In this document: positions 5,662 to 60,519 of the stretch, piece after piece
Numbering within the stretch: position 1 is the first letter of the stretch
Layout of the letters: each line of letters opens with the position of its first letter
Source: Siphonodentalium dalli
Taxonomy: Eukaryota > Mollusca > Scaphopoda > Gadilida > Siphonodentaliidae
DNA length: 64,000 bases
Reading direction: 5' to 3'
Assembly: GCA_032622095.1 (NCBI GenBank)
Contig: CP136063.1
Span: 214,911,982 to 214,975,981 of the forward strand
Program-made: the position numbers and the translations under genes
The notes under the pieces: model-generated
What the model saw: only the letters and a program-made list of their open reading frames with translations
Databases searched by the model: none
Told to the model about the DNA's origin: nothing

Positions 5662-5865
5662 AGATCCTGTGCCAGTTCATTCTCTTATATATTCGAGCCT
5701 CCCATAGGTATCCTCGTATATATAAGAGAATACGTGGCTTACAAGGTCAAGGTATTGTTAGGCCAATGTATTCCCAATGGGAGACTGAGACTCACATTTA
5801 TGAGAGAATACATTGGCACAGGATTTTTGCTAAATTTCAGGAAGCTCCTGTCATGGAAGGGTAAA
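5621..5865 (-). mobile_element. B1 element with two H hairpins
   Basis: Left TTAAccctttcatgacagta, hairpin at about 5681-5735, spacer ttacaaggtcaaggt, second degenerate hairpin, and right end aggaagctcctgtcatgg. The right TTAA has decayed (gggtaaa). Its left 40 bp are shared with the 100 bp repeat. Confidence 0.8.
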
Positions 5866-6337
5866 AAACATCACATCTACATTCCACCTTCTTTCATTAT
5901 CCCCGAAGAAAATTTGTAAAGCTTGCTGTTTGACTTTTGAAAGACTTGACCCTAAGTCTGGCCCCTAATTGACCAGCTCTGGTCTTCATCATGATTCATT
6001 CATCTACATTTAATCTAATTTACCTGTTACTTCTTACAGCTAGCTGAATTTCAAATTTAATTTCACACTTAAATTACCTTATTAAATTGGGGGCTGATTT
6101 GATTAACAAATTGGTTTAGTTCTAGAAGTCTAGGCATACATGTTGCTAATGCGTGATCAAAGAGAGGCCAGCTGTTCTTAACATAATATCCATTCACTGT
6201 ATATCATCAAATTCATAGGCATTCAGCCCCATTCTAAGAATGGAGGTCCAATTTAACCCTCAGATCCAAACAGATTGTCTTGCCTCAAGTTCTTTTTCCA
6301 ATGAAAAGTTGATATAAATACTAAGCTAGGGCTAAGC
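5866..6337. other. No gene recognised
   Basis: AT-rich sequence without repeats shared elsewhere in the window and without a convincing frame. Confidence 0.5.
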
Positions 6338-6615
6338 TACAGTAATGCCCTAAATAATTGACTCCTTAACCACAGCAGAATATTGGTAACTTTTCAGGAT
6401 TTAGTCTGAAATATGGCTTGTTGCCATTCATCGGAAAGCTCTCACTGAGAGCTTTCCGATGAATGGCAACAAGCCATATTTCCGAATTAAATCCTGAAAA
6501 GTTACCCCCGAGAGTTTTCCAATGAATGGCAACAAGCCATATTTCCGACTAAATCCTGAAAAGTTACCCATAATCTGCTGTGGTTAAGGAGTCGATTATT
6601 TAGGGAATTACTGTA
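6338..6615 (+). mobile_element. P MITE with a duplicated right arm
   Basis: TAcagtaatgccc to gaattactgTA. After the first right-arm segment (aatcctgaaaagttaccccc), the right arm restarts at gagagttttccaatgaatgg and runs to the end, giving three arms. Confidence 0.85.
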
Positions 6616-6789
6616 TATAGTATCTCTGACTAGGAACTCCACTATTCTCTACATTCTGTTCATCTTTTACAATGTCCCTGTATCAAGATTGTTTTGCAGG
6701 CATTTAAATATGAGGCATCTATGGACTATGTCTACGAAAGAGAAACCTTTATTAGTGTATAATTTCTGTTTTATTGATGTATTATGCTA

Positions 6790-7010
6790 TTGGTCTGTTC
6801 ATCTGTCAGTCCATCCATCCATTCATTTTGGTTTCCAGATGATAACTTTAGATAGTCTGAACTGAATGGAATGGAATTTGGTATCTGGGATTACTAGCAC
6901 AAAATACAGGTCAATTTCGATTTTGTGTTCAGCCAGAAAATTTTCACCAGAGTTGTGGCCCTTTGTTTGAATTAGGCGTATTTGCCACACCCTAGACATG
7001 CTCTTGTTAA
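6790..7010 (+). repeat. F-type repeat fragment
   Basis: ccatccatccattc microsatellite, then tttccagatgataacttta, the aatttggtat phrase, aaatacaggtcaatttcga and gagttgtggccctttg, in the same order as units at 8.2 and 53.7 kb. Confidence 0.5.
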
Positions 7011-7873
7011 AAAATGCAGATACATAGACAGAAACATGCAGATATGTGAATGTGGTGACCGTTATTGCACAATTTTGTTGTGGCTCAAATTTTACTGTTG
7101 ATTTTAACACCTTCCTATCTCTTTGTCATTTATAATGGGAGTTATCGGCATTTTGCCTTTACATTTCTTAATCCCAGAAATTATAAGTACAACCTCATTG
7201 TCGTCATTATTTCCTGTTTTTCGTAGTATTAGTGAGGTCACAAAAGGAAATTGGATGCCATACTAGAGGTTGCTATTTAACCATATTAGACTGTATTCTA
7301 TTTCCATAATATGCGTTAATAGGTTTTTGAGAAGCTGGTCTAATTTTGTCCATGTGATGGAACAGTTAGGGGGCTTTTTTTGGCTAACATCTGCCCAGTG
7401 TATGATTTCTAATGCCCTATAATTACCACACAGGGGCTTATGGTTTAGCAGTGTGGGTCATCTGATTCCCACTCTAATAGCATTACAACCAGGCAGTATT
7501 AATTAGTACATTTGAGCACAATGACGCAATCTTAATTAATCCCAATTAACAGGACAGGACTTCCACCAATCCCATCTTTATCCTTCATTCAGTTTTGTTA
7601 AAAAAAACCTATTGAGGGCACATGTTAACTGATGCTGGTAGTCATTTTGGCATGGGTAATTATAACAGTAATGATATTATCTAAGGCACATGTTCCCAAG
7701 CTGCCTGGACTCCTGTTATGTAACATGATCAAATGAAAAGAATTGATTTTTAATTTGGATTGATTTGGAAAAGCTGTTTGACATGCTTGCTAATGAGCAT
7801 TAAAGGTGAAATTTTTGCAAATGGTTCTCACTTGTAATTATGACCACCTGACCTGCACCAGCTAATCAGCTAT
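7011..7873. other. No gene recognised
   Basis: AT-rich, no supported feature. Confidence 0.5.
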
Positions 7874-8070
7874 TGAACCGTTTCATGACTGGAGCTTCCT
7901 GAAATTTTGCGATAAACCCTGTGACAATGCATAGGGCGCCTCACATACATGTATATAAGAGAATGCATTGGCCTAACAATATTTATCTTGATCTTCTAAG
8001 CCAGTGCATTCTATTATATATGCGAGGCTCCCTATGGGAGACTCACATATATAAGAGAATGCACTGGCAC
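7874..8070 (+). mobile_element. B1 element, right end replaced by F
   Basis: Left end ccgtttcatgactggagctt, two H hairpins (about 7925-7975 and 8002-8070) and the cttctaagccagtgcattct spacer edge. After gcactggcacagggttt the sequence passes into the F element and the usual right end is absent. Confidence 0.75.
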
Positions 8071-8075
8071 AGGGT

Positions 8076-8920
8076 TTTTATGTTTACCCATACCATGTAT
8101 GGTAAACATAGTGTCGTTGTCCGGATTGACCACTCGTCGTTCGTCCGTCCGTCTGTCCGTCCGTCTGTCCGTCCGTCTGTCCGTCCGTAGACACTTTACG
8201 TGTAATGCGATAACTCAAACATTTTTTACCTGATCAAAACCAAATTTTGTATATGGGGTTTTCAGCCCAAAATACAGATCGAGTTCGAATATGGGTTTGA
8301 TCCAACTTTTTTGTACAGAGTTATGGCCCTTTTTCGACTTAGAATTCACGCATTCTGCCATAACTCAAACATTTTTTATCTGATCGGAACCAAATTTGGT
8401 ATGTGAGTTTCTCGGCCCAAAATACAGATCGAGTTCGAATATGGGTTTGATCCGACTTTTTTTTACGGAGTTATGGCCCTTTTTCGACTTAGAATTCATG
8501 AATTCTGCCATAACTCAAACATTTTTTATCTGATCGGAACCAAATTTGGTATGTGAGTTTCACAGCCCAAAATACAGATCGAGTTCGAATATGGGTTTGA
8601 TCCGATTAATTTTAAAGGAGTTATGACCCTTTTTCGAAAAAAAATTGAAAAATTGAATCGATTTTTTTTTAAATTTATTTTTAACTTTTATAATAATAAT
8701 AAAAAAAATGTCATTGACATTGTCATTTGTTTTCATTTAGATATTGATGATTATGATAAAAAGATTTCCAATGTGTCCCTTTAATTTTTTTAAATAAGTT
8801 TAAAAAAATTGAAAAACTAACACCATTATAACTCTGCCAAGGGTACCCCGAATCACCACACCAAATTTGATTAAATCGGTCCAAAATCTTGTGTTATGTA
8901 CTGGTAAATCTGTTTGGAGC
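8076..8920 (+). mobile_element. F element (pearl/HINE-like)
   Basis: In order: a small hairpin (tgtttaccca ... tatggtaaaca at 8079-8111), a CCGT/CTGT microsatellite at about 8138-8188, three tandem ~150 bp units, and an AT-rich tail with ataactctgccaagggtacc. Microsatellite plus core repeats is the architecture of bivalve pearl elements. No transposase is encoded. Confidence 0.5.
8204..8640 (+). repeat. Tandem ~150 bp units, three copies
   Basis: taactcaaacattttt recurs at 8211, 8361 and 8511, exactly 150 bp apart. Each unit carries gatcgagttcgaatatgggt and, shortly after, ggagttatg(g/a)ccctttttcga. Confidence 0.85.
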
Positions 8921-9401
8921 AACATTAAATCCAATTCACCAATTGCCTTTGGACTTATGCCAATGTGCAAATAATCTGATACATAAGGCTATGGCATCTA
9001 ATTTAAAATAAAGATTCAACAATAAACATCACATGCTATTAACAGTAGACATGGACATCTGTGCTGCTATATAATTGATATTAATGGGTCAGTGGTGAGG
9101 TTGCTTATCTGTATACTAGGACACATTATTATTGTAAACTTAAATTGGACTCTCTTAACCCAAGTATTCCATGTCCAGGTCACACCTACACATTTAACCC
9201 ATGGGCTTGCTGGCTGTGGCGGTTTAGCATTACAGATTCTGTACCAGTGCATTCTCTTATATAAATGCCAGTGACCCATAAATTCCAATAATTTGTGTTA
9301 TGTACATTTGTCTATAATAGTACATAACAGTATACTCTATAATTGAACACCAAAACTCTCATTTATCCGATCATATTAAATTTTTATCGCCAAGGGATGG
9401 G
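8921..9401. other. No gene; small B1 hairpin fragment
   Basis: Mostly unassigned. At 9229-9268 tagcattacagattctgtac and cagtgcattctcttatata are a relic of the B1 left end and half of an H hairpin. Confidence 0.5.
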
Positions 9402-9473
9402 TTAACATCTGCCGATCGTGATCGGCCTCTCGTTAATGCTGCACCAGCGCAACGCCCATCGTCAAAGGGTTAA
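9402..9473 (+). mobile_element. Chimeric TTAA fragment (B3-like plus B1 end)
   Basis: TTAA at 9402, then gccgatcgtgatcggcc (B3-like), an internal TTAA, then tgctgcaccagcgcaacgcc and tcaaagggTTAA, the B1 right end. Only about 72 bp long. Confidence 0.55.
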
Positions 9474-9570
9474 TAGCCTGTCATGATTGGGATAGATGTT
9501 TGGGCCCCTGTCATTGGAAAAAAAATTCCCACACTAGGTGTTAAACATGAAATTATGATTTTGTAAGGTT

Positions 9571-9715
9571 TAAACCTTTCTATACTATAAAATACTCATT
9601 GACGAGTAGTTTCCTAATAGGAAATGATAGATAATAAGATAAACGTTTGCTGAACTTATTTTCTGCACATTTTCCACCAATGAATATGAATCCTTCTGCA
9701 CCAGTACGATTTTGT
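9571..9715 (+). mobile_element. B4 fragment
   Basis: cctttctatactataaaata, ctcattgacgagtagtttcc and gataataagataaacgttt as in other B4 copies. The right half is missing. Confidence 0.6.
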
Positions 9716-9801
9716 GTTGTTTCTTTCCGATTATTGTTCATTTTGTTGTACTATTAAAAGTGAAAAACTTTCAACATAAATAAGGCGCATATAACTAAAA
9801 G

Positions 9802-9951
9802 AATACCTAAAGTTTTTTGTTTGAATACCTGAAAAATCTCATTCATGTCTTGAAAGAAATATAAAATTTTGATGCTGCTTGTGAAAATTTGATATTTCTT
9901 TCCAGACACTCATGTGATATTTCGGTATTCAAACAAAAACTGTAGGTTATC
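9802..9951. repeat. Inverted repeat of ~65 bp arms
   Basis: taaagttttttgtttgaata on the left pairs with tattcaaacaaaaactgtag on the right, and cttgaaagaaatat pairs with atatttctttccag. Single copy in the window; possible MITE. Confidence 0.6.
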
Positions 9952-10510
9952 TCTATATCTTGCAACTACAATCAGAACCATAGTCGAACTGTGCATCATT
10001 TGTATGCATCATAATTGTTAACGATTGTGGGTCATGCTCTCCCCTGTGAATCATAGTCGTCATGTAATCTGCTTCATGTCCAAATTGTTCTCTCAGATTC
10101 CATCGACAAAAATTAAAGCCGCAAATGAAAATGGATGTTTTAAGATAGTGGAGCACTCTAAAGGTTTGAACTCTCATCGGAAACGATGACAGTGCCAATT
10201 GAATATCGACAGCTCGGTATTTGTTCATTCTTGTCAGGACGCATTTCAAAATCAGGTTTTAAAAAGATCCGCTGATTGTAAAATTGGCATTCATTTTTAA
10301 ATTAGAATTGTCAAAATCATTACAACTGTGGAGAACATGAGATTTAGATTCCTATCCTATGCATTCCAGGAGATAATTGCACGATTGTTGCATGAGATGT
10401 TCTTAGCTGTTTCAAATGCGTTGGAGAACGGAAACCAATTGAGTTTAATTTTCTGATTTGATTTATTTATCTGTTGTAACAATTGTAGTACACATGTTAG
10501 CATGAGCTTC
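9952..10510. other. No gene recognised
   Basis: A 98-codon minus-strand frame (9953-10249) matches nothing I recognise and starts in the inverted repeat. I do not call it. Confidence 0.45.
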
Positions 10511-10511
10511 A

Positions 10512-11092
10512 TTTTTTAGCTCAATATGACAGTCAAGTTTGAGCTATTGCCATGTGTTTGCGTCCATCGTCCATCGGGGCGTGCATGCATGCGTCAACAA
10601 TTTCCTTTGGCACAATCTAAAAGCCACATATCGGTGCATGACATGTTTGCCTTTGTGAACACATCTATTATATATTTTGGAACTCTGTCTGTATGTATGT
10701 ATGTGTGTGTGTATGTGTCTTATAGACTCATAAACTGCTCGACTGATTCAACTCAAATTTGTTATGTAGGCCTACTTGGATCCCGGGAACAATATGGGCA
10801 GGTCCAATTTCACGTCCGAATTTGTCCTTGACCTCGCTCATATATGCTCATATATGCATGGTTCTAGACCTTGACCTATCCGATTCAAATCTGGTATGTA
10901 CTTTGATTCCGGGAACAATATTGGCAGGTCCAATTTCATGTGTGGCCGTGTCCTTGACCTTGATCTCGCTCATATACGCTCATATAGGCATGTTTCTGGA
11001 CCGATCAAACAATAGTTTGTCCAGATGCTGTATATTCTGCCCAGATGGAGGCGATCACAAAAAAATCCCTAAATAGCTCAGACGAAGCACAT
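10512..11092 (+). mobile_element. F element with two ~130 bp units
   Basis: Starts with ttttttagctcaatatgaca, has a gtatgtatgtgtgtgtgtat microsatellite at about 10690-10715, then two units sharing ccgggaacaatat, ggcaggtccaatttcacg/atg and cgctcatata. It ends aatagctcagacgaagcaca followed by gctag. Confidence 0.5.
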
Positions 11093-11449
11093 CAGCTAGT
11101 TGTAAATAACTGTGCAAGTGTGGTTTCTTCTAGAATATTAGCGAAAAACAACTCCTTTCACTTGCAATGGCCGTCAACAATTTGAGTAACTGTGAACACT
11201 AAATGTTTCATATAGCACGTACCTACTGAAACCGAAAAGCCATGTTCGTGAATAATTGTGAGAACGTCCTTCTTTCGGGTTAAATACGTTCATAAACCAT
11301 GCAACGCTAATGCATTCAATTTTATTGGAAATTATAATCATGCTATTTTCACCATATATACAAGAAAACAACATATAAAAATATCAGAGGCGGGCGATTT
11401 TTTTCCAGGAGGGCACTGATGATAAGCAACAATACAATTTTGAAAGGCC
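11093..11449. other. No gene recognised
   Basis: No supported feature. Confidence 0.5.
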
Positions 11450-11675
11450 TTAACCCTTTGAGTGGCAGGTCCGATTTTTGTATCAACACATATACCCTGT
11501 GCCAATGCATTCTCTTATATATGCGAGTCGACCATATATATAAGAGAATGCATTGGCCTAACAATTTTTTTTTTTAAATGTTTTACAATTTTAATAATTT
11601 ATTCTTATATTCTGTAACAGACTTATTTTGTAGGTTTAGGGCCGATGAGATCGGCCCCTGGCACTCAAAGGGTTA
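11450..11675 (+). mobile_element. B3 element with one H hairpin
   Basis: TTAAccctttgagtggcagg to cctggcactcaaagggTTAA. It carries gatttttgtatcaacacata, one hairpin at about 11505-11557, a T-rich spacer and gggccgatgagatcggcccc. Here the hairpin is on the left, inverted relative to the copies at 47.8 and 51.0 kb. Confidence 0.85.
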
Positions 11676-12636
11676 AACAAATAGTGACTTCTCTCAATTT
11701 GAAACCTGTAGACTGATCCCTGGTCTCATGTCATAGTTTGGATGACGAACTTTGATTTTTCTCATTTAATTGCAAAGTGTCCTTCAGAAGATTGTGTACC
11801 TTGTCCTTCAATGTTTTTTTTTTTATCATCCCATACTACATACCCCACACTAAAGGTCCTAGGTCCTCGCCTAGTACCCTGCACACCTGTTCAGTGTGCC
11901 TGGTATACCAGTCATATGCGGTTGGAGTCTTTTGTACTCGGAAACCTGGTTCCACTTAGTTCTGGCAGTGACTGTTATCAAAGATTTCATATCAGAACAC
12001 CCTCCAGGCAATTGAATTGAAGGTGAAAATACACTTTTGTTTTATAACACTTCCCCAGGTAGATTGCTATGGTACCAAAGGTGTGTTTAGAATTACAATG
12101 GGATGAACTAAGACAGAAATAGATTAGCATTTCTCGAGATTTGCCAGGTCATTTAAAACTGGAAGCGGGGCCAGCAACCGTCTAATAGATGCCTCTGTTT
12201 GTTTGCATAGGTGTTTTGAAGATTTTTGAAGAAATAGAAAATTCATTATATGCATACCTGGTTCCTGGCATGGGAGCGCTTTGGTGAGAGAATCGGCCTG
12301 AGAGGTTATGCAGGATTTAACACTTACACTCCGTCGATAACTCAGGTGGCAGTACACGATTTATCAGGTTGTAGGGGGATTTGAAAAATAGAAAAATAAG
12401 TATCAGAGAGGGGGGAGGGGGCATAACTGCTAGTGTAGGCTGATATATCTGACATTACTGGTTTGAAGGTTTAATTATTTTACAAAACTGGGAAAGATAA
12501 CAAAAAAACTGAAAAATTTGGATATGTGACATGATTTTTGTATTCATTGTAGGTCAACTATGTGTATTTTGTTACATGAAAATAGCCTGATTTCTTCTCT
12601 CCCCTAAATTCTGTCATCTGTGCTCGCAAGACATTT
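11676..12636. other. No gene recognised
   Basis: Short frames only; none resembles a family I know. Confidence 0.45.
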
Positions 12637-12815
12637 TTTAACATCGTCAAAAATCTCAAGCAAATCGACCATACCACGCCATAGAAAACATTGTCTGAAC
12701 TACAATCAATTGTAAATATTTACATCTCGAATCGGGATGCAACTGTCGTCGATAAACTAACGAAAATGATTTCGCCATCAAGAGTCACTGAATTTAATTA
12801 ATATATAAGAATGAT
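12637..12815 (-). repeat. Repeat R, copy with an empty hAT site
   Basis: On the minus strand this reads aattaaattcagtgactctt, ttcgttagtttatcg, acagttgcatccc, aatatttacaattgattgta, gttcagacaatgttttct and gtcgatttgcttgag. The same string lies at 61725-62290, where a 362 bp element follows gttcaga. Confidence 0.75.
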
Positions 12816-12909
12816 TGTGTGTGTTGCATTTTGATATACTATTTGTAAAACTAACTACTTTGAGCAAAATTTTACTCCATTTCACCCTACTGGAGTGTTT
12901 AACATCACT

Positions 12910-13133
12910 TTAACACTTTCTATACTCATTGACGAGTAGTTCAATTAGGAAATATTTAAATACTAAGGTCATTTGTTGAACTTATTATCTGAACATTTCC
13001 CACCAATGATATGAGTTATTCTACTGTTGTCTGCTTTTAATTTATCTGAACATCCCTCCAAATTAATAATAGAACTTTTCAATGTATACTTCTATAACTG
13101 ATGGGAGAATCCATTTAATATAGCAATGGTTAA
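12910..13133 (+). mobile_element. B4 element, complete
   Basis: TTAAcactttctatactcatt, gaacttattatctgaacatt, acttctataactgatgggag and agcaatggTTAA. Both TTAA ends are present, but the terminal CCC/GGG bases have drifted. Confidence 0.75.
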
Positions 13134-14275: not shown

Positions 14276-14282
14276 TCTGAGG

Positions 14283-14388: not shown

Positions 14389-14453
14389 CGCAGCAGTGAG
14401 GTCATCTCTGCCAACAAAAGGGACAACTTTCTGATATGTCCTAATACCGATGG

Positions 14454-15555: not shown

Positions 15556-15717
15556 CAGGATTTTCATCTGAATCTCAATCCTTCTATACAGATGTTGCTG
15601 CATTAAAGAGAAAGTTATATATATGCAGTAGTTCTGCAATGATAAAAACTATATAATTTAAAACAAATTCAAGTTCAATTTCAATCACTTCTAAATTTCT
15701 CATCAGTGCCTTGGCTA

Positions 15718-15980
15718 CTAACCCTTTAATGTAGCTGTGCTGGTGCAGCATTAAAGATCATGTGCCAGTGCATTCTCTTATATATATGCAAGTATATCCC
15801 AGAGGGAGCCTCGCATATATAAGAGAATGTGCTGGCTTACAAGGTCAAGGTAAATATTGTTTGGCCATTGTTTTCTATTATATATGCAAGGCTCCCTATG
15901 GGAGACTCACTTATATTAGAGCATACATTGGCACAGGTTTTTCGTAAAAATTCAGGAAGCTGCAGTCATGGAATGGTTAA
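15718..15980 (-). mobile_element. B1 element joined to B2 through one TTAA
   Basis: ctaaccctttaatgtagctg start, two H hairpins separated by ttacaaggtcaaggtaaata, and end gctgcagtcatggaatggTTAA. That last TTAA is also the first base group of the next element. Confidence 0.8.
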
Positions 15981-16375
15981 CCCTTTACCCAACAGAACGG
16001 CCCTGTGCCAATGCATTCTCTTATATATGCGGGTCGACCATAGGTCGCCTCGCATATATAAGAGAATGCATTGGCTTAACACATTAAAAATTATAAAATT
16101 GTTAAAGAATGTAAGAAAAAATGGTAAAAAGTGTTAATTTTTTTTTTTTTTAGGCCAATGCATTCTCTTATATATGCGAGGCGACCTATGGTCGACTCGC
16201 ATATATAAGAGAATGCATTGGCACAGGGTATAACTGTAACCATCACAATGTGGTCAATGAGCCGGTTCCAATGATATCCATATTTGTATGGTTTTATTGA
16301 GACAGACCCAAGATATTTTAGGCTGTTGCAGCTTTATTTGGCCGGTTTTGGCCGGTTTGTTGGGTAAAGGGTTAA
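15977..16375 (-). mobile_element. B2 element, complete, double hairpin
   Basis: TTAAccctttacccaacaga to tgttgggtaaagggTTAA. Hairpin 1 (about 16007-16070), an AT-rich spacer with aaagaatgtaagaaaaaatg, and hairpin 2, which is the mirror image of hairpin 1. Then a ~150 bp tail with caatgtggtcaatgagccgg and ggccggttttggccgg. Confidence 0.9.
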
Positions 16376-16484: not shown

Positions 16485-16884
16485 TTAACCCTTTACCTAA
16501 CAAACCGGCCAAAACCGGCCAAATAAAGCTTCAACAGCCTAAAATATCTTCGGTCTGTCTCAATAGAACCATACAAATATGGATATCATTGGAACCGGCT
16601 CCTTGACCACATTGTGATAGTTACAGTTATGCCCTGTGCCAATGCATTCTCTTATATATGCGAGTCGACCATAGGTCGCCTCGCATATATAAGAGAATGC
16701 ATTGGCCTAAAAAAAATCTTTTTTTAACACTTTTTACCATTTTTTCTTACATTCTTTAACAATTTTATAATTTTTAATGTGTTAAGCCAATGCATTCTCT
16801 TATATATGCGAGGCGACCTATGGTCGACTCGCATATATAAGAGAATGCATTGGCACAGGGCCCTTCTGTTGGGTAAAGGGTTAA
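16485..16884 (+). mobile_element. B2 element, opposite orientation
   Basis: TTAAccctttacctaacaaa, ggccaaaaccggcc, tail, hairpins at about 16639-16703 and 16788-16853, and end ttctgttgggtaaagggTTAA. It is inverted relative to the copy about 100 bp upstream. Confidence 0.9.
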
Positions 16885-23149: not shown

Positions 23150-23188
23150 TTATAAAATTGCAGGAAGCTCCAGTCATGGAAGGGTTAA
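23150..23188 (-). mobile_element. B1 right-end fragment
   Basis: Only gcaggaagctccagtcatgg and aagggTTAA remain. The TTAA is shared with the following B2. Confidence 0.7.
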
Positions 23189-23584
23189 CCCTTTACCCAA
23201 CAAACCGGCCAAAACCGACCAAATAAAGCTTCAACAGCCTAAAATATCTTCGGTCTGTCTCAATAGAACCATACAAATATGGATATCATTGGAACCGGCT
23301 CCTTGACCACATTGTGATAGTTACAGTTATGCCCTGTGCCAATGCATTCTCTTATATATGCGAGTCGACCATAGGTTGCCTCGCATATATAAGAGAATGC
23401 ATTGGCCTAAAAAAAAAACTTTTTTTAACACTTTTTACCATTGTTCTTACATTCTTTAACAATTTTATAATTTTTAATGTGTTAAGCCAATGCATTCTCT
23501 TATATATGCGAGGCGACCTATGGTCGACTCGCATATATAAGAGAATGCATTGGCACAGGGCCCTTCTGTTGGGTAAAGGGTTGA
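23185..23584 (+). mobile_element. B2 element, complete
   Basis: TTAAccctttacccaacaaa, tail, mirrored hairpins at about 23336-23405 and 23487-23553, and end gttgggtaaagggTTGA with one base changed in the right TTAA. Confidence 0.9.
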
Positions 23585-28045: not shown

Positions 28046-28292
28046 TTAACCCTTCCATGACTGGAGCTTCCTGAAATTTTGTGAAAACCCTGTGCCAATG
28101 CATTCTCTTAAATATGCGAGGCTCCCACAGGGATTACATTGGTCTAACAATATTTACCTTGACCTTGTAAGCCAGTGCATTCTCTTATATATGCCAGGCT
28201 TCCCATGGGAGTGTAGCATATATAAGAGAATGCAATGGTACAGGATCTTTAATGCTGCACCAGCGCAGCTACCGTCATGAAAGGGTTTTTAA
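28046..28292 (+). mobile_element. B1 element, complete, followed by B4
   Basis: TTAAcccttccatgactgga, two hairpins, atctttaatgctgcaccagc, and end gtcatgaaagggttttTAA, where the final TTAA is also the start of a B4 fragment. Confidence 0.85.
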
Positions 28293-30508: not shown

Positions 30509-30898
30509 TTAACCCTTTACCCAACAGAACGGCCCTGTGCCAATGCATTCTCTTATATATGCGAGTCGACCATAGGTCGCCTCGCATATATAAGAGAATG
30601 CATTGGCTTAACACATTAAAAATTCTAAAATTGTTAAAGAATGTAAGAAAAAATGGTAAAAAAAGATTTTTTTTAGGCCAATGCATTCTCTTATATATGC
30701 GAGGCGACCTATGGTCGACTCGCATATATAAGAGAATGCATTGGCACAGGGCATAACTGTAACTATCACAATGTGGTCAAGGAGCCGGTTCCAATGATAT
30801 CCATATTTGTATGGTTCTATTGAGACAGACCGAAGATAATTTAGGCTGTTGAAGCTTTATTTGGCCGGTTTTGGCCGGTTTGTTGGGTAAAGGGTTAA
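30509..30898 (-). mobile_element. B2 element, complete
   Basis: TTAAccctttacccaacaga, mirrored hairpins at about 30538 and 30677, tail with gaagataatttaggctgttg, and end gttgggtaaagggTTAA. Confidence 0.9.
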
Positions 30899-37336: not shown

Positions 37337-38141
37337 CCTCATTTGCAGAATGAGGTCTCCAGACTGAGAGGGTGAATGTAGTGATGCTATCCCACACTGT
37401 GGGCTAGCGTCACCACATTCACCCTCTGGGAGCCTCATTCTGCTCAGGCCTCAACTGCTATGACAGATCTAGGATCAGATTGAAGTTCACAAGTTGAAGT
37501 TGGTGATGTTCACCCATTTATAGTCACCTCGATTATGCATTTTGTCTTCTGCAAATTAGGGGATATAGAAACTGAGCAGAAGGGAAATAGTAACTAAAAC
37601 AATGTTAATTTGACTCTATAGATACTTCCCAGAAGATGAGGCCTAAGCAGAATGAGGTCCCCAGAGGGTGAGTATGGTGATGTTAGCACGCTGTGCAGGA
37701 TAGTATCACTTAACCCTTTACTCAATAGAACGGCCCTGTGCCAATGCATTCTCTTATATATGCGAGTCGACCATAGGTCGCCTCGCATATATAAGAGAAT
37801 GCATTGGCTTAACACATTAAAAATTATAAAATTGTTAAAGAATGTAAGAAAAAATGGTAATTTTTTTTTAGGCCAATGCATTCTCTTATATATGCGAGGC
37901 GACCTATGGTCGACTCGCATATATAAGAGAATGCATTGGCACAGGGCATAACTGTAACAATCACAATGTGGTCAAGGAGCCGGTTCCAATGATATCCATA
38001 TTTGTATGGTTTTATTGAGACAGACCCAAGATAATTTAGGCTGTTGAAGCTTTATTTGGCCGGTTTTGGCCGGTTTGTTGGGTAAAGGGTTAATTCACCC
38101 TCTTGGGACCTCATTCTGCAAACAAACTATATCCAGGCTTT
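37337..38141 (+). mobile_element. E element interrupted by B2
   Basis: catttgcagaatgaggtctc at the left, full interior, atagtatcact before the B2 and ttcaccctcttgggacctc after it, ending atatccaggctt. Confidence 0.8.
37710..38093 (-). mobile_element. B2 nested in E
   Basis: TTAAccctttactcaataga, mirrored hairpins at about 37740 and 37873 with a short spacer, tail, and end gttgggtaaagggTTAA. Removing it with one TTAA restores the E string cactTAAttcaccctc (consensus cactaaattcaccctc). Confidence 0.9.
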
Positions 38142-38862
38142 GTCTTTATAGTTACCGGGAACTGTTTGATGTTCTGACAGGGAAGTTTATAACATTGAAA
38201 AAACAATGCAGCTAATGATATTTCTCAGTTAACACTTTCATGACGGGAGCTTCCTTAATTTTTGCGAAAACCCTGTGCCAATGCATTCTCTTGTATATAC
38301 GATTTGACCATAGGTCACCTCGCATATATAAGAGAATGTATTGGCCTAACAAATTTTATATTATTTTTTATAATTGTTAAAAAATGTCAGATAAATTGAT
38401 AAAAAATGATAAAAAAATTGTTAAAGAATTTCAGAAAAAAATGATGAAAATTGTTATAGAATGTAAGAAAATATGATAAAAAATGAAAAAAATTGTAAAA
38501 GAATGTAAAAAAAATTTATAACAAAAATTATAGGCCAATGCATTCTCTTATATATGCGAGGCGGCCCATGGTTGACTCGCATATATAAGAGAATGCATTG
38601 GCACAGGGTCTTTAATGTTGCGCCAGTGCAGCTCCCATCATGAAAGAGTTAATACCTGTTCCTTTACAATGTATTTCACAGTTACTAAGGTGAAGGTCCA
38701 AGCTTGATATTGCATGATTTAGTTGACTTTGGTGTGCCGTTTTTACTTTGCTTCACTTACAATAATTGAATTTCTCCCGGGTAATCAATTCAACAGCTCA
38801 GAACATAAAAAAGTTTCCAGGTTTTAAAAGGGTTGAATATGATCTCTAACAGTCTTAAGGCA
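38142..38862 (-). mobile_element. K element interrupted by B1
   Basis: gggaactgtttgatgttctg at the left, gattgcatgattt-like atattgcatgatttagttga, gaatttctcccgggtaatca and aaagtttccaggtttt at the right match the reverse of 985-1343. Confidence 0.6.
38229..38652 (+). mobile_element. B1 ends with B2-type interior (hybrid)
   Basis: TTAAcactttcatgacgggag and gcagctcccatcatgaaaga-gTTAA are B1 ends. Both hairpin centres (tttgaccataggtcacc, ggcggcccatggttgac) and the long aaagaatgtaagaaa spacer are of the B2/B3 type. Confidence 0.85.
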
Positions 38863-45146: not shown

Positions 45147-45661
45147 TATATCTGCACAATCGAGGTGAATGTCACCAACTACACCTGGGGAACTTTAATC
45201 TGATCCTTGGTCTCCCATAGCAGTTAACCCTTTACCCAACAAACCGGCCAAAACCGGCCAAATAAAGCTTCAACAGCCTAAAATATCTTGGGGTCTGTCT
45301 CAATAAAACCATACAAATATGGATATCATTGGAACCGGCTCATTGACCACATTGTGATGGTTACAGTTATGCCCTGTGCCAATGCATTCTCTTATATATG
45401 CGAGTCGACCATAGGTCGCCTCGCATATATAAGAGAATGCATTGGCCTAAAAAAAATCTTTTTTTAACACTTTTTATCATTTTTTTCTTACATTCTTTAA
45501 CAATTTTACAATTTTTAATGTGTTAAGCCAATGCATTCTCTTATATATGCGAGGCGACCTATGGTCGACTCGCATATATAAGAGAATGCATTGGCACATG
45601 GCCCTTCTGTTGGGTAAAGGGTTAAGGCCTAAGCAGTATGAGGTCCTCAGAAGGTGAATCC
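45147..45661 (-). mobile_element. E fragment, inverted, interrupted by B2
   Basis: gcacaatcgaggtgaatgtc, ctgatccttggtctcccata and gcag before the B2, then ggcctaagcagtatgaggtc after it. Confidence 0.75.
45224..45625 (+). mobile_element. B2 nested in E at TTAA
   Basis: TTAAccctttacccaacaaa, tail, mirrored hairpins at about 45377 and 45529, and end gttgggtaaagggTTAA. The target string gcagTTAAggcc exists uninterrupted (as its complement ggccTTAActgc) in the E copy at 569-924. Confidence 0.9.
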
Positions 45662-47786: not shown

Positions 47787-47849
47787 TCAAAAATATACAC
47801 TTTTATAACTGGGTGGGAGAATTCATTTAGTATTAAAAGAAAGGGTTAA
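47787..47849 (+). mobile_element. B4 right end
   Basis: atatacacttttataactgg, tgggagaattcatttagtat and aaagggTTAA. The TTAA is shared with the next B3. Confidence 0.65.
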
Positions 47850-48102
47850 CCCTTTCAGTGCCAGGGGCCGATCTCATCGGCCCTAATTTACGGTCTGTAA
47901 AATCGGTCCTAAAAACATTTAAAAAAAAAATTTGTAAACAATTGTGAAAAATAATAACAAATGATGAAAAATTGTTAGGCCAATGCATTCTCTTATATAT
48001 GCGAGGCGACCTATGGTCGACTCGCATATATAAGAGAGAGAATGCATTGGCACAGGGTATATGGGTTGATACAAAAATCGCACCTGGCACTCAAAGGGTT
48101 AA
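47846..48102 (+). mobile_element. B3 element, complete, one H hairpin
   Basis: TTAAccctttcagtgccagg, ggccgatctcatcggccc, acggtctgtaaaatcgg, AT spacer, hairpin at about 47980-48050 (with an extra ga pair), gggttgatacaaaaatcgca and ctggcactcaaagggTTAA. Confidence 0.9.
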
Positions 48103-48375: not shown

Positions 48376-48466
48376 TATATAGAATATATGGTTAAAGAAG
48401 GGTTAAGAACACTGTAACCCTGTATCTATAATATGCGCATCGGTTTGTGAGAGAATACACGGTTAA
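48376..48466 (+). repeat. Repeat J, interrupted by B2
   Basis: ggttaagaacactgtaaccc, tgtatctataatatgcgcat, cggtttgtgagagaatacac and ggTTAA. It continues as TTAAagaagggTTAA after the B2. Related units are at 51708-51756 and 52497-52612. Confidence 0.6.
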
Positions 48467-48853
48467 CCCTTTACCCAACAAAACCGGCCAAATAAAGCTT
48501 CAACAGCCTAAAATATCTTCGGTCTGTCTCAATAACACCATACAAATATGGATATCATTGGAACCGGCTCCTTGACCACATTGTGATAGTTACAGTTATG
48601 CCCTGTGCCAATGCATTCTCTTATATATGCGAGTCGACCATAGGTCGCCTGGCATATATAAGAGAATGCATTGGCCTAAAAAAAATCTTTTTATAATACT
48701 TTTTACCATTTTTTCTTACATTCTTTAACAATTTTATAATTTTTAATGTGTTAAGCCAATGCATTCTCTTATATATGCGAGGCGACCTATGGTCGACTCG
48801 CATATATAAGAGAATGCATTGGCACAGGGCCCTTCTGTTGGGTAAAGGGTTAA
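48463..48853 (+). mobile_element. B2 element nested in J
   Basis: TTAAccctttacccaacaaa with one ccggccaaaa unit missing, tail, mirrored hairpins at about 48605 and 48755, and end gttgggtaaagggTTAA. Confidence 0.9.
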
Positions 48854-50902: not shown

Positions 50903-51450
50903 CCTAACAGCACACCCATTATTAAAATATTTTACACTATACAAATGTACATGCTTATCCTCGATTTGTTCAGATTAGTCAAAGACTATACGGTCTGTAA
51001 AATCGGCCCTAAAAAAAAAAAAATTGTAAAAAATAATAACAAATGATGAAAAATTGTTAGGCCAATGCATTCTCTTATATATGCGAGGCGACCTATGGTC
51101 GACTCGCATATATAAGAGAGAGAATGCATTGGCACAGGGTATATGGGTTGATACAAAAATCGCACCTGGCACTCAAAGGGTTAAACCCCAAAAAAGACAG
51201 GAATAGCCATCTTAATCATGATCAGTTTGCAACTAACAGCACACCTATTATTAAAATATTGTTCAATATACAAATGTACATGCTTATCCTCGATTTGTTC
51301 AGATTAGTCAAAGACTGCGAAAATGACAACTTTAGAAAACAGAACGTTAACTTTTTGTAACAGCATCAGTTTGCTCTACCAGCATTATAACACTTCATCA
51401 GGACCCACCAACATCATAGTAAATTAGCAGAACCACTTAACACAGGGTGT
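50903..51450 (+). repeat. Block D1, copies 2 (partial) and 3
   Basis: 50903-50985 (ctaacagcacacccattatt to gattagtcaaagact) joins directly to atacggtctgtaaaatcgg inside B3. After that B3, the whole D1 block follows (51185-51450). Confidence 0.75.
50986..51184 (+). mobile_element. B3, left end replaced
   Basis: Starts at acggtctgtaaaatcggccc without a TTAA terminus, then spacer, H hairpin with the same extra ga pair as the 47846 copy, and end ctggcactcaaagggTTAA. Confidence 0.85.
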
Positions 51451-53735: not shown

Positions 53736-53880
53736 TCAATCTGTCTTGTCATCCGTCCGTTCAGTTTATTAGCACTAGTTATGGCCCTTTTTGTTGGAAC
53801 TTGCAGTCAAATTTTCGTTTCTGGATGATAACTTTAGTAAGTCAGAACTGATTCGGTAAGTTCCAAGGTACTTTCTGAAA
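53736..53880 (+). repeat. F-type fragment
   Basis: catccgtccgttcagtttat, tagttatggccctttttgt and ggatgataactttagtaagt. Confidence 0.5.
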
Positions 53881-54467
53881 TGCCCTGCTTCAAATGGCCA
53901 ACCTCTAAAAGTTTTGAGCTTGGATTAGTAGCAAACTTTGAACAGATGTATTGGTTTCTTGTGCTAATTAACAGTGAAATGTTGTTAATTTCCTCAATTT
54001 ATTCTGTAATAATGACCAATGTCATATGCTCTCTGATGCCATAGGAATTTAGCCTGGCATGAATTGAAACATGTTTCTCATAATAATCACATCTTGGTTT
54101 GATTTTCATTGGGCCCCACAACTCATGCTCTAAAATTAATGATGCCTTGTGACTCCTATTAAAATCTTGACCCTTGTAAACCTTGGTTAAGTAGAGTTGT
54201 GACTTTAGCCAAATTCAGTGCCAAATATCTGTATCAAAGACATGTGCTGTGTATTATTTCACTAGAAAATTAATGCAAATAGTTTATACAACTGGACACT
54301 GATCTGGTATCTGTGTGTGTGATGTCCAGATTTTGATGGATGCTTGTATTGATACAAGCATAATTGAAGTATTAGTAATTAGCATACATATCTGGTATGG
54401 TCACTCTATGATTAGTTTATATTTAACCCATGGTTACCATGGGACCTTGAAAGCCTGGATAGCCATG
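53881..54467. other. No gene recognised
   Basis: No supported feature. Confidence 0.4.
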
Positions 54468-54669
54468 TAAAATAATGCCCTAAATAATCGACTCCTTAAC
54501 CACAGTAGAATTATGGATAACTTTTCAGGATTTAGTCGGAAATATGGCTTGTTGCCATTCATCGGAAAGCTCTCATTGAGAGCTTTCCGATGAATGGCAA
54601 CAAGCCATATTTCCGACTAAATCCTGAAAAAGTACCCATAATTCTGCTGTGGTTAAGGAGTTGATCATT
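54468..54669 (+). mobile_element. P MITE, right terminus lost
   Basis: TAaaataatgccctaaataa to gtggttaaggagttgatcat. Arms around gctctcattgagagc are nearly perfect. The last ~15 bp are absent. Confidence 0.85.
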
Positions 54670-54984
54670 TTGGTTAATTAAAAAAAAATTGCCTAGGCCA
54701 TAAATATTTCCTTGGCTAAAAAGCCTGGGACCCACATATGCACATACATGTAATTGCAATCTCTACACATACAAGTATAACTTCAATTCACAAAATTAGA
54801 ACTCTGCCTGTTATCATCCATGGCATTGGCAGACCTTGATTGGGTCTGGCTTTAATAATAATGCTGATTATCAAAATACATGTGTAATAATTGTCATTGG
54901 CATTCAACAATGAATTTTTGCTGTCTGCAGACTTCCACAATGTGGCACTAAGACAATATCTGCAGCAATTTGTTTCAATTTTGC

Positions 54985-55100
54985 ACAAAACATTGGCAGG
55001 TTCTGAGATTTGTCTTGGCCAAAAATTTGCCGATGACATTTCTTTTTGCCTTGTCATTTGCCTTGGCTCAGCCGATAGCCGATGCTAATTGACAGGGCTG
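54985..55100 (-). repeat. Dispersed repeat pair with 17625-17755
   Basis: Minus strand: atcggctatcggctgagcca, ggcaaaaagaaatgtcatcg and gcaaatttttggccaagac. Confidence 0.5.
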
Positions 55101-55294
55101 TGGCCATGTATGATAAGTAACCATTCAAGGCCTGGAAATTGCTTAGATTAACACTATAACGAACCTTTAACTTTTTCTGCACTAAATGGATTCTCCCATT
55201 CTAATCACACTGTGTATCTTTAAGAGCTAAATATATCCCTTCTGATAATATGTCTAAGAATTATTATGGCCCTTACCATTGATTCCTGGTACCC

Positions 55295-55511
55295 TACAGT
55301 AACGCCCTAATTAATCGACTCCCTAACCACAGCAGAATTATGGGTAACTTTTCAGGATTTAGTTGGAAATATGGCTTGTTGCCATTCATCGGAAAGCTCT
55401 CGGGGAGAGCTTTCCGATGAATGGCAACAAGCCATATTTCCGACTAAATCCTGAAAAGTTACCCATAATTCTGCTGTGGTAGAGGAGTTGATTAATTAGA
55501 GCGTTACTGTA
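55295..55511 (+). mobile_element. P MITE, full length
   Basis: TAcagtaacgccctaattaa to agcgttactgTA, centre gctctcggggagagc. The cgcc / gcgt change occurs on both ends. Confidence 0.9.
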
Positions 55512-55889
55512 GCTTCAGAATAACATCCCTGACGAGGAGGCTTTAGCTCTTTTATTTTTGATTCCGCTTCATCCACTTTTGAGTGTTAATTCGGTGAAGT
55601 GGAGATAGTTTTGGCGTACTCTGCATAATAGTTATGAATAAAATTCATTTGAGCCATTAAAAAAGATATTAATGGGGGCCAAGAAACGTGAAGTGAATTT
55701 ATAAAAGGGGCCAAGCGCTGAAGTGTGAGTCTCTCCAAGCGTCATTAAAAGGTAAATTAGTTTTAGCGCATTTTTAAATCACTCTATACATACAGGCCTA
55801 ACCTTCAAGTGTTTGATGGAAACTTGTGAATAAAACTGAATGTCTCTGATGTAATTTCCCATAATGAGCTTCAGAATTAACCCTATAGC
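55512..55889. other. No gene recognised
   Basis: No supported feature. Confidence 0.4.
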
Positions 55890-56074
55890 TACAGTAATGT
55901 CTTAAATAATCGACTCCTTAACCACAGCAGAATTATGGGTAACTTTTCATGATTTATTCGGAAATATGGCTTGTTGCCATTCATCGGCAACAATCCATAT
56001 TTCCGACTAAATCCTGAAAAGTTACCCATAATAATGCTGTGGTTAAGGAGTCGATTATTTAGGGCATTAATGTA
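55890..56074 (+). mobile_element. P MITE with central deletion
   Basis: TAcagtaatgtcttaaataa to gggcattaatgTA. The centre is deleted between ccattcatcgg and caacaatcc. Confidence 0.85.
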
Positions 56075-56159
56075 CCCATGTCTGGTGCATGTTGTATTTC
56101 AAATCAAATCAAATCATTTAATCATGGAATGAGTCTGTTTGACTCTTGGTTCCGGTGAA

Positions 56160-56220
56160 GCTATATATACCATATATACTATATATATACATATATACGT
56201 TTTCATAATACATATATAGA
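56160..56220 (+). repeat. TA-rich microsatellite
   Basis: ctatatataccatatatact and atatatatacatatatacg. Preceded at 56099 by three aaatc units. Confidence 0.75.
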
Positions 56221-56327
56221 CTGCCTATACATCGTGATCAAATTTCTGGTATTCCAAATGAATGTCTATGAGAAACTATGCGGTCACCATGCACTGACTC
56301 CAGTAAATTGGATGGCCTCAACCCTTT

Positions 56328-56773
56328 CTATACTAAATACTCATTCCCTTAGAAATGTTCAGATAATAAGTTCAACAAACGTTTGATGAACTTATTATCT
56401 GAACATTTCCTACCAATTAACAGAAATCCTGCTGCAGTTTGTTATGCATCTGTCTGTCGTCACCTTTTATTACTTGAACATCTCCCAAATGAATAAATGA
56501 CAGTTCCAATGTACAGTAATGCCCGAAGTATATGACCCTTTAACCACAGCAGAATTATAGGAAATTTTCAGGATTTAGTCGGAAATATGGCTTGTTGCCA
56601 TTCATCGGAAAGCTCTCACCGAGAGCTTTCCGATGAATGTCAGCAAGCCATATTTTTGACTAAATCTTGAAAAATTACCCAAAATTCTACTGTGGTTTAT
56701 GCATGGATTATTTAGGAGATTACTGTAAACTTTTATAGTTGAATGGGAGAATGCATGCAGTATATAAAGGTTG
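56328..56773 (+). mobile_element. B4 element interrupted by P
   Basis: ccctttctatactaaatact, gaacttattatctgaacatt and acagttccaatgTA before the P; then aacttttatagttgaatggg and agaatgcatgcagtatataa after it. Confidence 0.75.
56512..56727 (+). mobile_element. P MITE nested in B4
   Basis: TAcagtaatgcccgaagtat to gagattactgTA. Removing it with one TA gives ccaatgTAaacttttatag, matching B4 copies such as 30215 (ccaatgtatacttgtata). Confidence 0.9.
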
Positions 56774-57689
56774 CATTCAAAATAACGGTAAAAGAGATAA
56801 ACAGACTAGCACCAGTCATATATTTCCGACAATTTATACTCCAGCCTTATTCTCCGCAATATGTTCAATACATCAATGTCCGTCCTGTATCATTTTGTCA
56901 ATAACTGTAGCCGGTATCAAACAAAATTATGAATTGTTCTCAATTTGGATAATGTGTATTCATTTCAATAATTTTGACATATTAGTAGGATTTGAAGGGA
57001 TTAAATGAATGAAAAATGTGATTGGGGATGAAAACTGGGCATTAACTGCGGACTTTATCGGTCCTGTTGGCTGTTACGATGGCCCACAAATAGCATTTGA
57101 TGTATTCATATTTGAAGAGCAGAATATTAAAGATAAAACTCAACTACACGGCAAACATTTCAAGTGGGAGCAGGCTGCTAACACTTCCATGGAAAAAACG
57201 CTAATTAACACTTTGTTGCCATGTTTGTCTTGATATGAATTCAAGAACAGATGGCAGGTAGATCCAAAGGGAACAGGGACTTAGCAACAGGGGGGTGTGG
57301 GTTTGGGGAGACACGATCAGACACCCCTCAAAACTGTTCTACAGTTTGCCTCACACAAAATCAGTTGGAGATTTCAGACATAAAATATGTTGAAATTGTT
57401 CTGATAGTTTGAATTCTAACCAGTATTTAATGTGAAATTCAACATTTTAGACCAACAGTTGAATAATTTCTTACTTTTGGTAAAAAATTATGACGGAAAT
57501 GACCTCAGCTGGAAAATTCCAACCATATTATTGTGTTGGGTTGGAAATTTCCAAATGTTTGACATGCTAGTTGGAATATTCTAAGCCAAAGCCAGGGCAA
57601 AATGAAATTTCCCAGAATTGTCAATTTCAATCTGGTTTTAACACATTCTCTGCCGACTATGAGTTATCTCGTACTTTTTGCATGTAATT
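56774..57689. other. No gene recognised
   Basis: Two short plus-strand frames (56739-57008, 57009-57233) are unrecognised and the first starts inside B4. Not called. Confidence 0.4.
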
Positions 57690-58442
57690 ATACCCCCACT
57701 TTCGAAGAAAATGGGGGGTATACTGGATTGACTGTCTGTCCGTCACACTTTCTCCCTCTGTGCGTCCGTGCGTCCATCCGTCCGTCCGTCCGACCTCATA
57801 ACTCAAACAACTATGAACCGATTTGAATAATTTTTTGTATGCAATCTCCTTAGGACTGCCTCTCCGCATGATGTTAATTGCGGTGCGGTCCGACTTTCTT
57901 TTTTTAAGTTACGCCTTACTTTTCAACTTATTTTGACTTAGAAAATTCTGTCCGACTTAATAACTTTAACAAATATGAACCGATTTCAATAATTTTTGGT
58001 ATACATGCTTCTCACAACACCCTCTCTACATGATGCGGGTCAGGGTTGGCTTGCACTGTTTTTCCTAACATTACACTTCATTTTCGACTTATTTTGACTT
58101 AGAAAATTTGGGGTTTTTTTTCTTGTGGATGCTTTTTTCCCTGGAGTTGTGTGCCTTCTTAGCAGAAGTTTGGTTTGACTGACGAAACACTCGACAAAAG
58201 CCATCTTAGATGTTAAGCTTGCGTTTCATTTTCTACCCTTTTTTGGGTTTCTGTAATCATTCGAACAAATATGAACCAATTTGAATATTTTTTTCTGTAC
58301 AAGCTTCTTGCGACACCATATCGATATTATTAATCCAAATTTTTCTTTAAAGTTAAAAATCTTTTTTGTTGGGTTTACGGATAATGCGGGTTGGAATTTG
58401 CCATGGTGGGGGTATGCTAGCACGCGAGTGCACACCTCTTGT
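57690..58442 (+). mobile_element. F element, complete, three units
   Basis: tacccccactttcgaagaaa / atggggggtatactgg start, a gtccgtccgtcc microsatellite at about 57776, units with aacaaatatgaaccgattt, and end ggtgggggtatgctagcacg, cgagtgcacacctcttg. A small hairpin gcac-gcga-gtgc lies just before the end. Confidence 0.6.
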
Positions 58443-58468
58443 TGAATATGGCGTAGGCAGTGAACGTA

Positions 58469-58731
58469 TTAACCCTTTCATGACAGGAGCTGCGCTGGTG
58501 TAGCATTAAAGATCCTGTACCAGTGCATTCCCTTCTATATGCAAGTCTCCCATAGGGAGCCTCACATATATAAAATAATGCATTGGCTTACAAGGTCAAG
58601 GTAAATATTGTTAGGCCAATGCATTCCCTTGTATATGCGAGTCTCCCTATGGAAGACTCGCATATATAAGAGAATGCATTGGTACAGGGTTTTAGCAAAA
58701 ATTCAGGAAGCTCCAGTCATGGAAGAGTTAA
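58469..58731 (-). mobile_element. B1 element, complete
   Basis: TTAAccctttcatgacagga, two H hairpins (58532 and 58615 on), spacer ttacaaggtcaaggtaaata and end gctccagtcatggaagagTTAA. Confidence 0.9.
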
Positions 58732-58833
58732 GGAAATTAAGGCTGGGGAGGGGAGGTGCAAATGAAGAAAGCCTAAGGCTGAAATTGAAAGTTTATTTTT
58801 AATCGTTTTATATTATTTGGTTGGACTTTTATG

Positions 58834-58975
58834 TACTGTAATGCTCTAAATAATAGACTCCTTAACCACAGCAGAATTATGGGTAATTTTTCAGGATTTA
58901 GTCGGAAATATGGCTTGTTGCCATTCATCGGAAAGCTCTCACTGAGAGCTTTCCGATGAATGGCAACAAGCCATG
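58834..58975 (+). mobile_element. P MITE, right arm truncated
   Basis: TActgtaatgctctaaataa, centre gctctcactgagagc, cut after caacaagccatgtttct. Confidence 0.85.
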
Positions 58976-60267
58976 TTTCTGTGAAAACTTTGATAATTTC
59001 CTAGTTTCAGTCAATTTTGGAGGCATTGGGAACAATTAGAAAATGTTAATATTGAACTCTCAATTGAACATTAGTGACCATAAATTTCTCTGCAATGTGA
59101 ATTTTAGTTTACGCGTGGGATAGTAATGGTGCAGTTGGCATATATAAGTGGATATTCCATAATAATTCAAGATCCTCCCGATTTTGATATTTTTCTGCAT
59201 TTTGCTTGCACAAGGCTTACCATGCCTAGATTTAAAGCCTTGTTGACAACAAATCAAATGATCTATTCTGAAATTGACATGGCTATAGGATTTCACTGTC
59301 AGATCTCAATTTTGATAGCTGTGGGTTTTGATTCCTATCCATAGAGTTCCATTCCACAAAAGCTAGATTTCACAGATAATCAATGGAAAATGCAATTAAG
59401 ATACTCTGTGCTACAGGTCTCTCACCAGCATGTTAAAAGAGTGAAACCAGCTGACCTACCAAATCATGATTTTTTCAACATTTTAATGGTCTGACAGACC
59501 AAATTACAGTGGAATGGAAAAAGAAACAATTCCGGAGAAGGCATAAATACGGAATGGGGCATAGGTTCATAACCGAAACAGTTGCTTAGCAACTAGCATC
59601 AGTTTTTGTTTGATAATTTAACTAGTTGGACATAAAACTTGTAAATTTTGTAAAAATTGACATTTGCTGTTTGGAATCGGCAGCACATGGCCGGTCTATC
59701 AAATTTTATCTTCTTCCATTGTAAATTACTCTTTTGTTTGAATGTTACTGGGTTTATCCTGCTTCTAATAGCCTGGGAGTGGTGCCTGGATGGCTGAAAC
59801 ATTTGGTGAATATCTCCAACGTGCCCTTCTATCTCTTTTTCATCAGACATAACAGATGTTCAAACTTAACTGTTATTTGCATTATTTTTAGTGGCAAAGG
59901 TTGAATTTAAGAAACAGCCGGTAGTTTTTGCTATAGAACAATAGAAAGAGGTCAGCTCCAGGGCCATGACTGGGACATATAGAAGATGTGCCCCCCCCAA
60001 AATAAATTTCCAGCTCTGGGTCTGATGAGAAGCCTCATTTATTTTTTTCACCATTTTCAACTTTAATGAATGCAAACATCCTGTAAAATTATGGGGGAAC
60101 CGAGTCACCACACCAAATTTGTTTTGTGTGAAATTCTACAGTATGTTGTTCGGCATTTGACACTTCTATAAAATGACGTTCATTGCATATATATATATGG
60201 CAATAATAAAGAGTGTTTATGTGAAAATTGAAATCTGCTAATAAATTTCTGTTAATTGGTCTGTCCT
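58976..60267. other. No gene recognised
   Basis: Only short frames; no repeat I can assign. Confidence 0.4.
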
Positions 60268-60519
60268 TTAACCCTTTACCCAACAGAACGGCCCTGTGCC
60301 AATGCATTCTCTTATATATGCGAGTCGACCATAGGTCGACTCGCATATATAAGAGAATGCATTGGCACAGGGCATAACTGTAACTATCACAATGTGGTCA
60401 AGGAGCCGGTTCCAATGATATCCATATTTGTATGGTTCTATTGAGACAGACCGAAGATATTTTAGGCTGTTGAAGCTTTATTTGGCCGGTTTTAGCCGGT
60501 TTGTTGGGTAAAGGGCTAA
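60268..60519 (-). mobile_element. B2 with a single fused hairpin
   Basis: TTAAccctttacccaacaga, one hairpin whose centre gcgagtcgaccataggtcga is fully symmetric, tail, and end ttgttgggtaaagggCTAA. The spacer and half of each usual hairpin are gone. Confidence 0.9.

Follow-up and report, generated by a model that had tools for sequence, protein, structure and literature searches.

The coral CMITEs are families of TTAA-type miniature inverted-repeat transposable elements (MITEs) that have different terminal repeats and a conserved 75-base internal region in common; they are described as having piggyBac-type tips, as occurring in tandem arrays and as including a composite element formed by insertion, and about 1600 copies are given for A. 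millepora (PMC2872659). The internal regions of different MITE families are typically much more dissimilar, and the authors of that report suggest that the common region may aid transposition (PMC2872659). Palindromes near the tips are also described for piggyBac and piggyBat ends, where they are recognized by the transposase and, in piggyBac, are placed asymmetrically (PMC11707139). Here we examine a 64,000-nucleotide stretch of the genome of the scaphopod mollusc Siphonodentalium dalli (assembly GCA_032622095.1; contig CP136063.1, here C3, positions 214911982-214975981, called the window below; the genome is 2.227 Gb in nine contigs), in which a hairpin, H, lies within short elements of three types, B1, B2 and B3. 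In this genome H occurs with at least four distinct sets of transposon ends, and within the lineages of our sample its two arms mutate independently.

H is a 69-nt near-palindrome whose two arms are fully paired apart from a single T.C position; from its outer end it reads GCCAATGCATTCTCTTATATATGCGAG, T, CGACC, ATA, GGTCG, C, CTCGCATATATAAGAGAATGCATTGGC. A search of the window by nhmmer with a hairpin model, in which non-overlapping matches were counted, gave 45 matches from 5666 to 60366 (36 span nearly the whole model and 33 are within the gap limit), in agreement with the about 45 copies claimed by a first-pass annotation of the letters alone. The two apex types that it distinguished, CTCCC and CGACC, both occur above the shuffle level in the window: at two or fewer mismatches the apex CTCCCATAGGGAG has 17 matches there (0.85 in shuffles) and the apex CGACCATAGGTCG has 20 (0.27 in shuffles). 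Genome-wide, the outer arm joined to its CCTGTG flank has at least 171,045 exact occurrences, and 21-mers of the arm occur exactly 47 times in the window when about 10 are expected from their genome total of 338,640. When folded as single-stranded DNA, three copies from the window gave -36.1, -29.5 and -40.4 kcal/mol (z scores of -13.7, -11.5 and -16.0). Pfam gave one match only, below the curated cut-off, on four open reading frames of the window.

The hairpins were compared in an alignment of 238 full rows from 133 sources, namely the window, loci for which exact ends or the B1 spacer served as seeds, and the first listed places, nearly all of them on contig C1. Removal of the overlaps L002, L004 and L090 reduced 308 H matches to 301, from which 63 incomplete ones were then removed; some duplicated segments may persist in this sample. 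The T.C mismatch is conserved in 219 of the 238 rows, and the annotation was thus right that this asymmetric position is kept.

All three carriers have TTAA at both ends, as had been claimed, together with a CCYT tip motif like that described for the coral elements (PMC2872659). They are short (consensi of 263 bp for B1, 400 bp for B2 and 244 bp for B3), non-coding and of high copy number, and they have terminal inverted repeats, the features by which MITEs are recognized. Their consensi begin TTAACCCTTT or TTAACCCTTC at both ends and thereafter diverge. Exact ends number 91,621 for B2, 27,509 for B1 (a figure that includes satellite) and 16,492 for B3; the B1-type TTAA end is also clustered at 37-bp spacings and their multiples, in a satellite whose unit bears the B1 end (C1:3257437-3273391, 4325745-4329315, 4907349-4910270 and 4921208-4924003). 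H lies 50 and 48 bp from the tips in B1, 153 and 30 bp from them in B2, and 51 bp from the left tip in B3. The layout of B1, B2 and the fourth carrier described below, B4, is end, CCCTGTG, H1, a mostly A/T-rich spacer, inverted H2, CACAGGG, end, and B3 holds a single H. The CCCTGTG/CACAGGG boundary is identical behind unrelated flanks in the carriers. B3-like ends also occur without H, in a palindromic TTAA element at window 5367-5565 (strand not assigned; ends ...GATTTTTGTATCAACCCATAT) and at 2 of 100 listed genome places, most of the listed places running directly into H.

B4, which was not seen in the window and whose loci were gathered later and lie outside the 238-row set, has a 457-bp consensus with two H, 51 and 50 bp from tips that read GTGACCCGCCATATCAAATCCAGTCG, and 18,051 exact ends genome-wide. 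Its flanks were compared in 17 copies (18 less one duplicate; L179 and L182, an apparent reverse-complement duplicate, were both kept): identical 4-base flanks were found in 13 of the 17, each of them AWWT, TTAA was found in none, and the next four flanking bases match in one copy. B4 therefore makes a 4-bp AWWT target duplication and is not a TTAA element, and since both its ends and its duplication differ it should need another transposase. At L180 (C1:12491674-12492177) a B4 copy flanked on each side by ATAT lies in an apparent H arm that belongs to another element, a nested insertion. The proposal that H is a module common to families with different ends is thus borne out in B1, B2 and B3 and extended by B4. 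The annotation had named, as the reading that would undo this one, families that derive from a single ancestor in which only the ends drifted; the evidence is against it, because unrelated flanks reach the same CCCTGTG boundary, B3-like ends exist without H, and H is also present in B4 with its other target duplication.

Apex type was compared with the flanks over the 238 full hairpins. The CGACC type is flanked by B2, B3 or B4 sequence in 135 rows and by B1 sequence in three, the CTCCC type is flanked by B1 sequence in 72, one ambiguous row has a B1 flank, and 27 rows have no recognized flank. The three CGACC-type rows with B1 flanks are the two hairpins of an element at window 38229-38652 (minus strand), whose ends are both of the B1 kind and whose spacer is A/T-rich, and one hairpin of L141 (B1 left flank). 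Both apex types thus occur behind B1 ends, and the strict tie of apex type to ends in the annotation is broken. Mixed apices number only 26 and 53 copies genome-wide, scattered over the contigs, so that one-sided intermediates were amplified little.

Do the two arms covary? Changes were scored at 32 pairs against the consensus of each lineage and compared with 500 shuffles of the 3' letters, after removal of the one row of ambiguous type. The 143 CGACC-type rows have 88 one-sided changes and a single compensated one (shuffle mean 0.4). The CTCCC type was divided into B1-H1 and B1-H2, four unassigned rows being removed, and gave 12 compensated changes in the 53 rows of B1-H1 (11.0 in shuffles) and 6 in the 37 rows of B1-H2 (6.9 in shuffles). 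Apices with A or C as the second base (1,900 and 1,918 matches) were examined at 98 distinct sites among 100 listed, and at 96 of these the partner is unpaired; the two compensated exceptions are identical in sequence and 122 kb from each other. Several recurrent one-sided changes in H fall at CpG. The annotation had held that symmetry is maintained while the sequence drifts, but compensated changes are at the shuffle level within each lineage, the listed apices are nearly all one-sided, and at the level of copies the changes on the two sides are independent, a result that it had itself named as evidence against its proposal. Compensatory changes between related copies, by which a structured RNA is recognized, do not mark H.

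The paired differences lie instead between founder consensi. B1-H1 differs from B2 at six positions of H, which make up three whole pairs (six random positions among 33 pairs would do so with p ~6e-5, a value computed after the fact), and B1-H2 differs from B2 at two whole pairs and at one one-sided position, 14/68. Strict symmetry is therefore not required, because the B1-H2 consensus itself has a one-sided position, and CTCCC/CGACC is a difference between founder lineages. A third pair, CCAGT/ACTGG versus CCAAT/ATTGG, had been said to separate the two hairpins of B1; it does separate their consensi, but only loosely, since in B1-H2 22 of 37 rows have A/T and 12 of 37 have a one-sided G/T.

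We favor, with a probability of about 0.7, the explanation that H belongs to a re-ended and amplified cassette of piggyBac-type MITEs that is symmetric by descent. H would be half of an inverted-repeat cassette in very numerous non-autonomous DNA transposons, and B1, B2 and B3 would be mobilized by piggyBac-type transposases of the same genome. The cassette was probably first present in the B1 lineage, since B1 ends are found with both apex types, and the CGACC type would have arisen there; that type would then have joined B2, B3 and B4 ends, through putative recombination or template switching or by nested insertion, and amplification of a few masters would have followed. The match between the arms would reflect descent from a palindromic master, with no copy-by-copy repair or selection and with independent mutation of the arms once inserted. 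The CTCCC/CGACC change would have happened once or twice in the master lineage, most simply by a short apical template switch. Template switching in hairpins is described as changing both arms at once and giving several paired stem changes (PMC8794818), and such changes in one event are its likeness to the founder difference; the described cases are in RNA genes (PMC8794818), whereas at most one or two founder events would be involved here. Because H1 and inverted H2 are alike they could recombine, which may have given rise to elements with one hairpin and to tandem arrays. Examples of the former are the B2 element at window 60268-60519, described below, and the B2 element L029, whose lone hairpin retains T/C; L110 (C1:6762200-6763300) and L159 (C1:544100-545100) are tandem arrays with periods of 96 and 97 bp, close to the combined length of H and the B1 spacer.

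Several points weigh against this explanation. Paired founder differences are also expected from selection on masters, and two or three founder pair changes are too few to separate such selection from a template switch. When the 94 CTCCC-type rows are pooled, they have 511 one-sided changes and 47 compensated ones against 37.5 in shuffles (standard deviation 4.4, largest shuffle 54); 29 of the 47 fall at pair 11/71, a pair that distinguishes H1 from H2, and the excess vanishes only after H1 and H2 are separated. No autonomous carrier was found: none of the 24 piggyBac loci that were examined (of 128 listed matches) has H arms within it. Single tips that resemble those of the MITEs are present at some of these loci: B2 at L171 (one mismatch in 18) and at L018 and L161 (three each), B1 at L162 (two mismatches in 18), and B3 at L008 and L011 (three mismatches in 19). 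The best chance matches in 300 shuffles per tail, which do not preserve the common CCCTTT start, had three mismatches for B2 (15 shuffles), three for B1 (2 shuffles) and four for B3 (12 shuffles). A matching second end was not found at L162, L171, L008 or L011.

That H is part of piggyBac elements was ruled out for the 24 loci; H arms occur at L020 only, beside neighboring B1 and B3 ends, and a weak gapped H match at L015 was dismissed as chance. Two piggyBac elements with long open frames, L012 (C1:161099000-161104500; 3411 bp) and L165 (C3:298383500-298389400; 3413 bp), terminate on either side in the same 17-base tip, TTAACCCTTTATCTGCT, and to judge from these features they were probably active recently.

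Might the symmetry be upheld in each copy? The annotation had proposed copy-level selection for an RNA hairpin (a small-RNA precursor) or for a DNA cruciform. Two points favor it, the very stable fold of H and the two or three whole pairs that differ between the founder consensi, but compensation is absent within lineages and found at 2 of the 98 listed apex sites, the B1 hairpins have diverged about as much as their flanks, and an Rfam scan of the window gave no family at the gathering threshold; selection for either fold is not supported, and we consider it highly improbable. Arm-to-arm copying, that is, quasipalindrome correction by template switching that continually equalizes the arms, uses a mechanism described for hairpins (PMC8794818) that could make the CTCCC/CGACC change in one step. 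Its action on every copy is nonetheless very unlikely, since the conserved T.C mismatch means that copying from arm to arm is not routine, and one-sided changes in H are left unrepaired. Arm copying is contradicted as a routine process and is possible as a rare founder event.

Selection might instead act on the masters and cease after insertion, if H were a cis-acting site that masters need in order to move, a long palindrome bound by a dimeric protein in several families. We hold this to be possible though somewhat unlikely; by analogy, a palindrome near the piggyBac end is bound by two C-terminal cysteine-rich domains (PMC11707139). The H consensus is the same in the five hairpins of B2, B3 and B4, though their spacers differ, one-sided apex intermediates are rare, and H lies 48-51 bp from the tip at 5 of 7 ends, a spacing rule that B2 breaks. 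Non-CpG divergence from the consensus is lower in H than elsewhere in B2 (1.1% vs 3.3%) and B3 (0.8% vs 5.0%), but not appreciably in B1 (9.3% vs 10.0%), where the seeding of loci on the spacer understates variation outside H in both divergence and column counts. Columns with shared variants are scarcer in H in B3 (3/61 vs 28/84 elsewhere, p = 2.4e-5), although the B3 left flank alone (3/24) is not different from H; they are not significantly scarcer in B2 (12/122 vs 21/157, p = 0.46) or B4 (1/122 vs 7/176, p = 0.15), nor in B1 (79/130 vs 38/74, p = 0.24). Singleton columns are also scarcer in H in B2 (p = 0.022). A general deficit of variation in H, counted by columns, is significant only in B3 and was not relied upon, and these values together are weak evidence for constraint on H in masters. 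The unpaired position 14/68 of the B1-H2 consensus and the lack of H in the 24 piggyBac loci also argue against a required site. The cassette might alternatively be a transposon in its own right, possibly one with TA as its target, that entered small elements of the B1-B4 types and was amplified in the composites. Its boundary is the same in four hosts, TA stands before and after it in B4 and before it in B3, and three of five CGACC rows with no recognized flank are preceded by TA (one hairpin each in L127, L149 and L157). Neither TA nor a direct repeat surrounds the cassette in B1 or B2, however, and TA is lacking at the other L157 hairpin and at window 45723; B4 is symmetric, so that its terminal repeats would put a TA at each side in any case, and none of the loci fetched showed a free cassette in which both ends were clean and a duplication was present. 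We regard an independent transposon as unlikely. Also doubtful is the broader idea that the cassette with its two hairpins could be swapped among non-autonomous elements and would let them use unrelated transposases, as a general accessory site or as an end-capturing mobile unit, also beyond TTAA.

The elements of the window show the arrangements described above. B2 elements with two hairpins lie at 15977-16375 (minus strand; TTAA ends and two inverted CGACC hairpins), 16485-16884 (plus; hairpins at 16632-16709 and 16783-16860), 23185-23584 (plus), 30509-30898 (minus), 37710-38093 (minus), 45224-45625 (plus) and 48463-48853 (plus), and a further B2 element at 60268-60519 (minus) has only one hairpin, built from two outer arms with T/A in place of T/C, and this hairpin is a perfect palindrome. 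The B3 elements are at 11450-11676 (plus; a single hairpin with an apical deletion), 47846-48102 (minus; a single CGACC hairpin) and 51057-51184 (minus; a hairpin and the left end, the other end not being placed). B1 elements of the CTCCC type are at 5621-5865 (plus; hairpins degraded), 15717-15980 (plus; two hairpins), 28046-28289 (minus) and 58469-58731 (plus; two hairpins). Window 6338-6615 and 5107-5199 contain more long, near-perfect palindromes that lack H and are likely other MITEs. Outside the window, rare H flanks recur in mirrored order and on the opposite strand in C1 at about 1.73-1.83 Mb and 3.55-3.67 Mb, which is probably a large inverted duplication or an assembly artifact.

In organization, which is the basis of the comparison and not interior sequence, these elements resemble the CMITEs in having different ends and a common conserved interior, and tandem arrays occur both in the coral families (PMC2872659) and at L110 and L159. 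The CMITEs are TTAA elements only, and the word "hairpin" does not appear in the available part of that report (PMC2872659), whereas the interior here consists of paired 69-nt palindromes and one carrier is of the AWWT type; about 1600 copies (PMC2872659) compare with more than 10^5 hairpins. H likewise differs from the piggyBac palindrome, which is 19 bp long (PMC11707139), in its 69-nt length and in being common to unrelated ends. What is new beyond the coral elements is thus the palindromic cassette, its copy number and a non-TTAA carrier. The analysis also cautions that the subfamily consensi of a palindromic repeat can differ on both sides in a way that mimics covariation, although the individual copies have none. 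The same interior behind different ends is unusual among MITEs (PMC2872659), and more than 10^5 hairpins behind four types of ends, with two kinds of target duplication, provide material on the role of internal sequences and on the exchange of ends.

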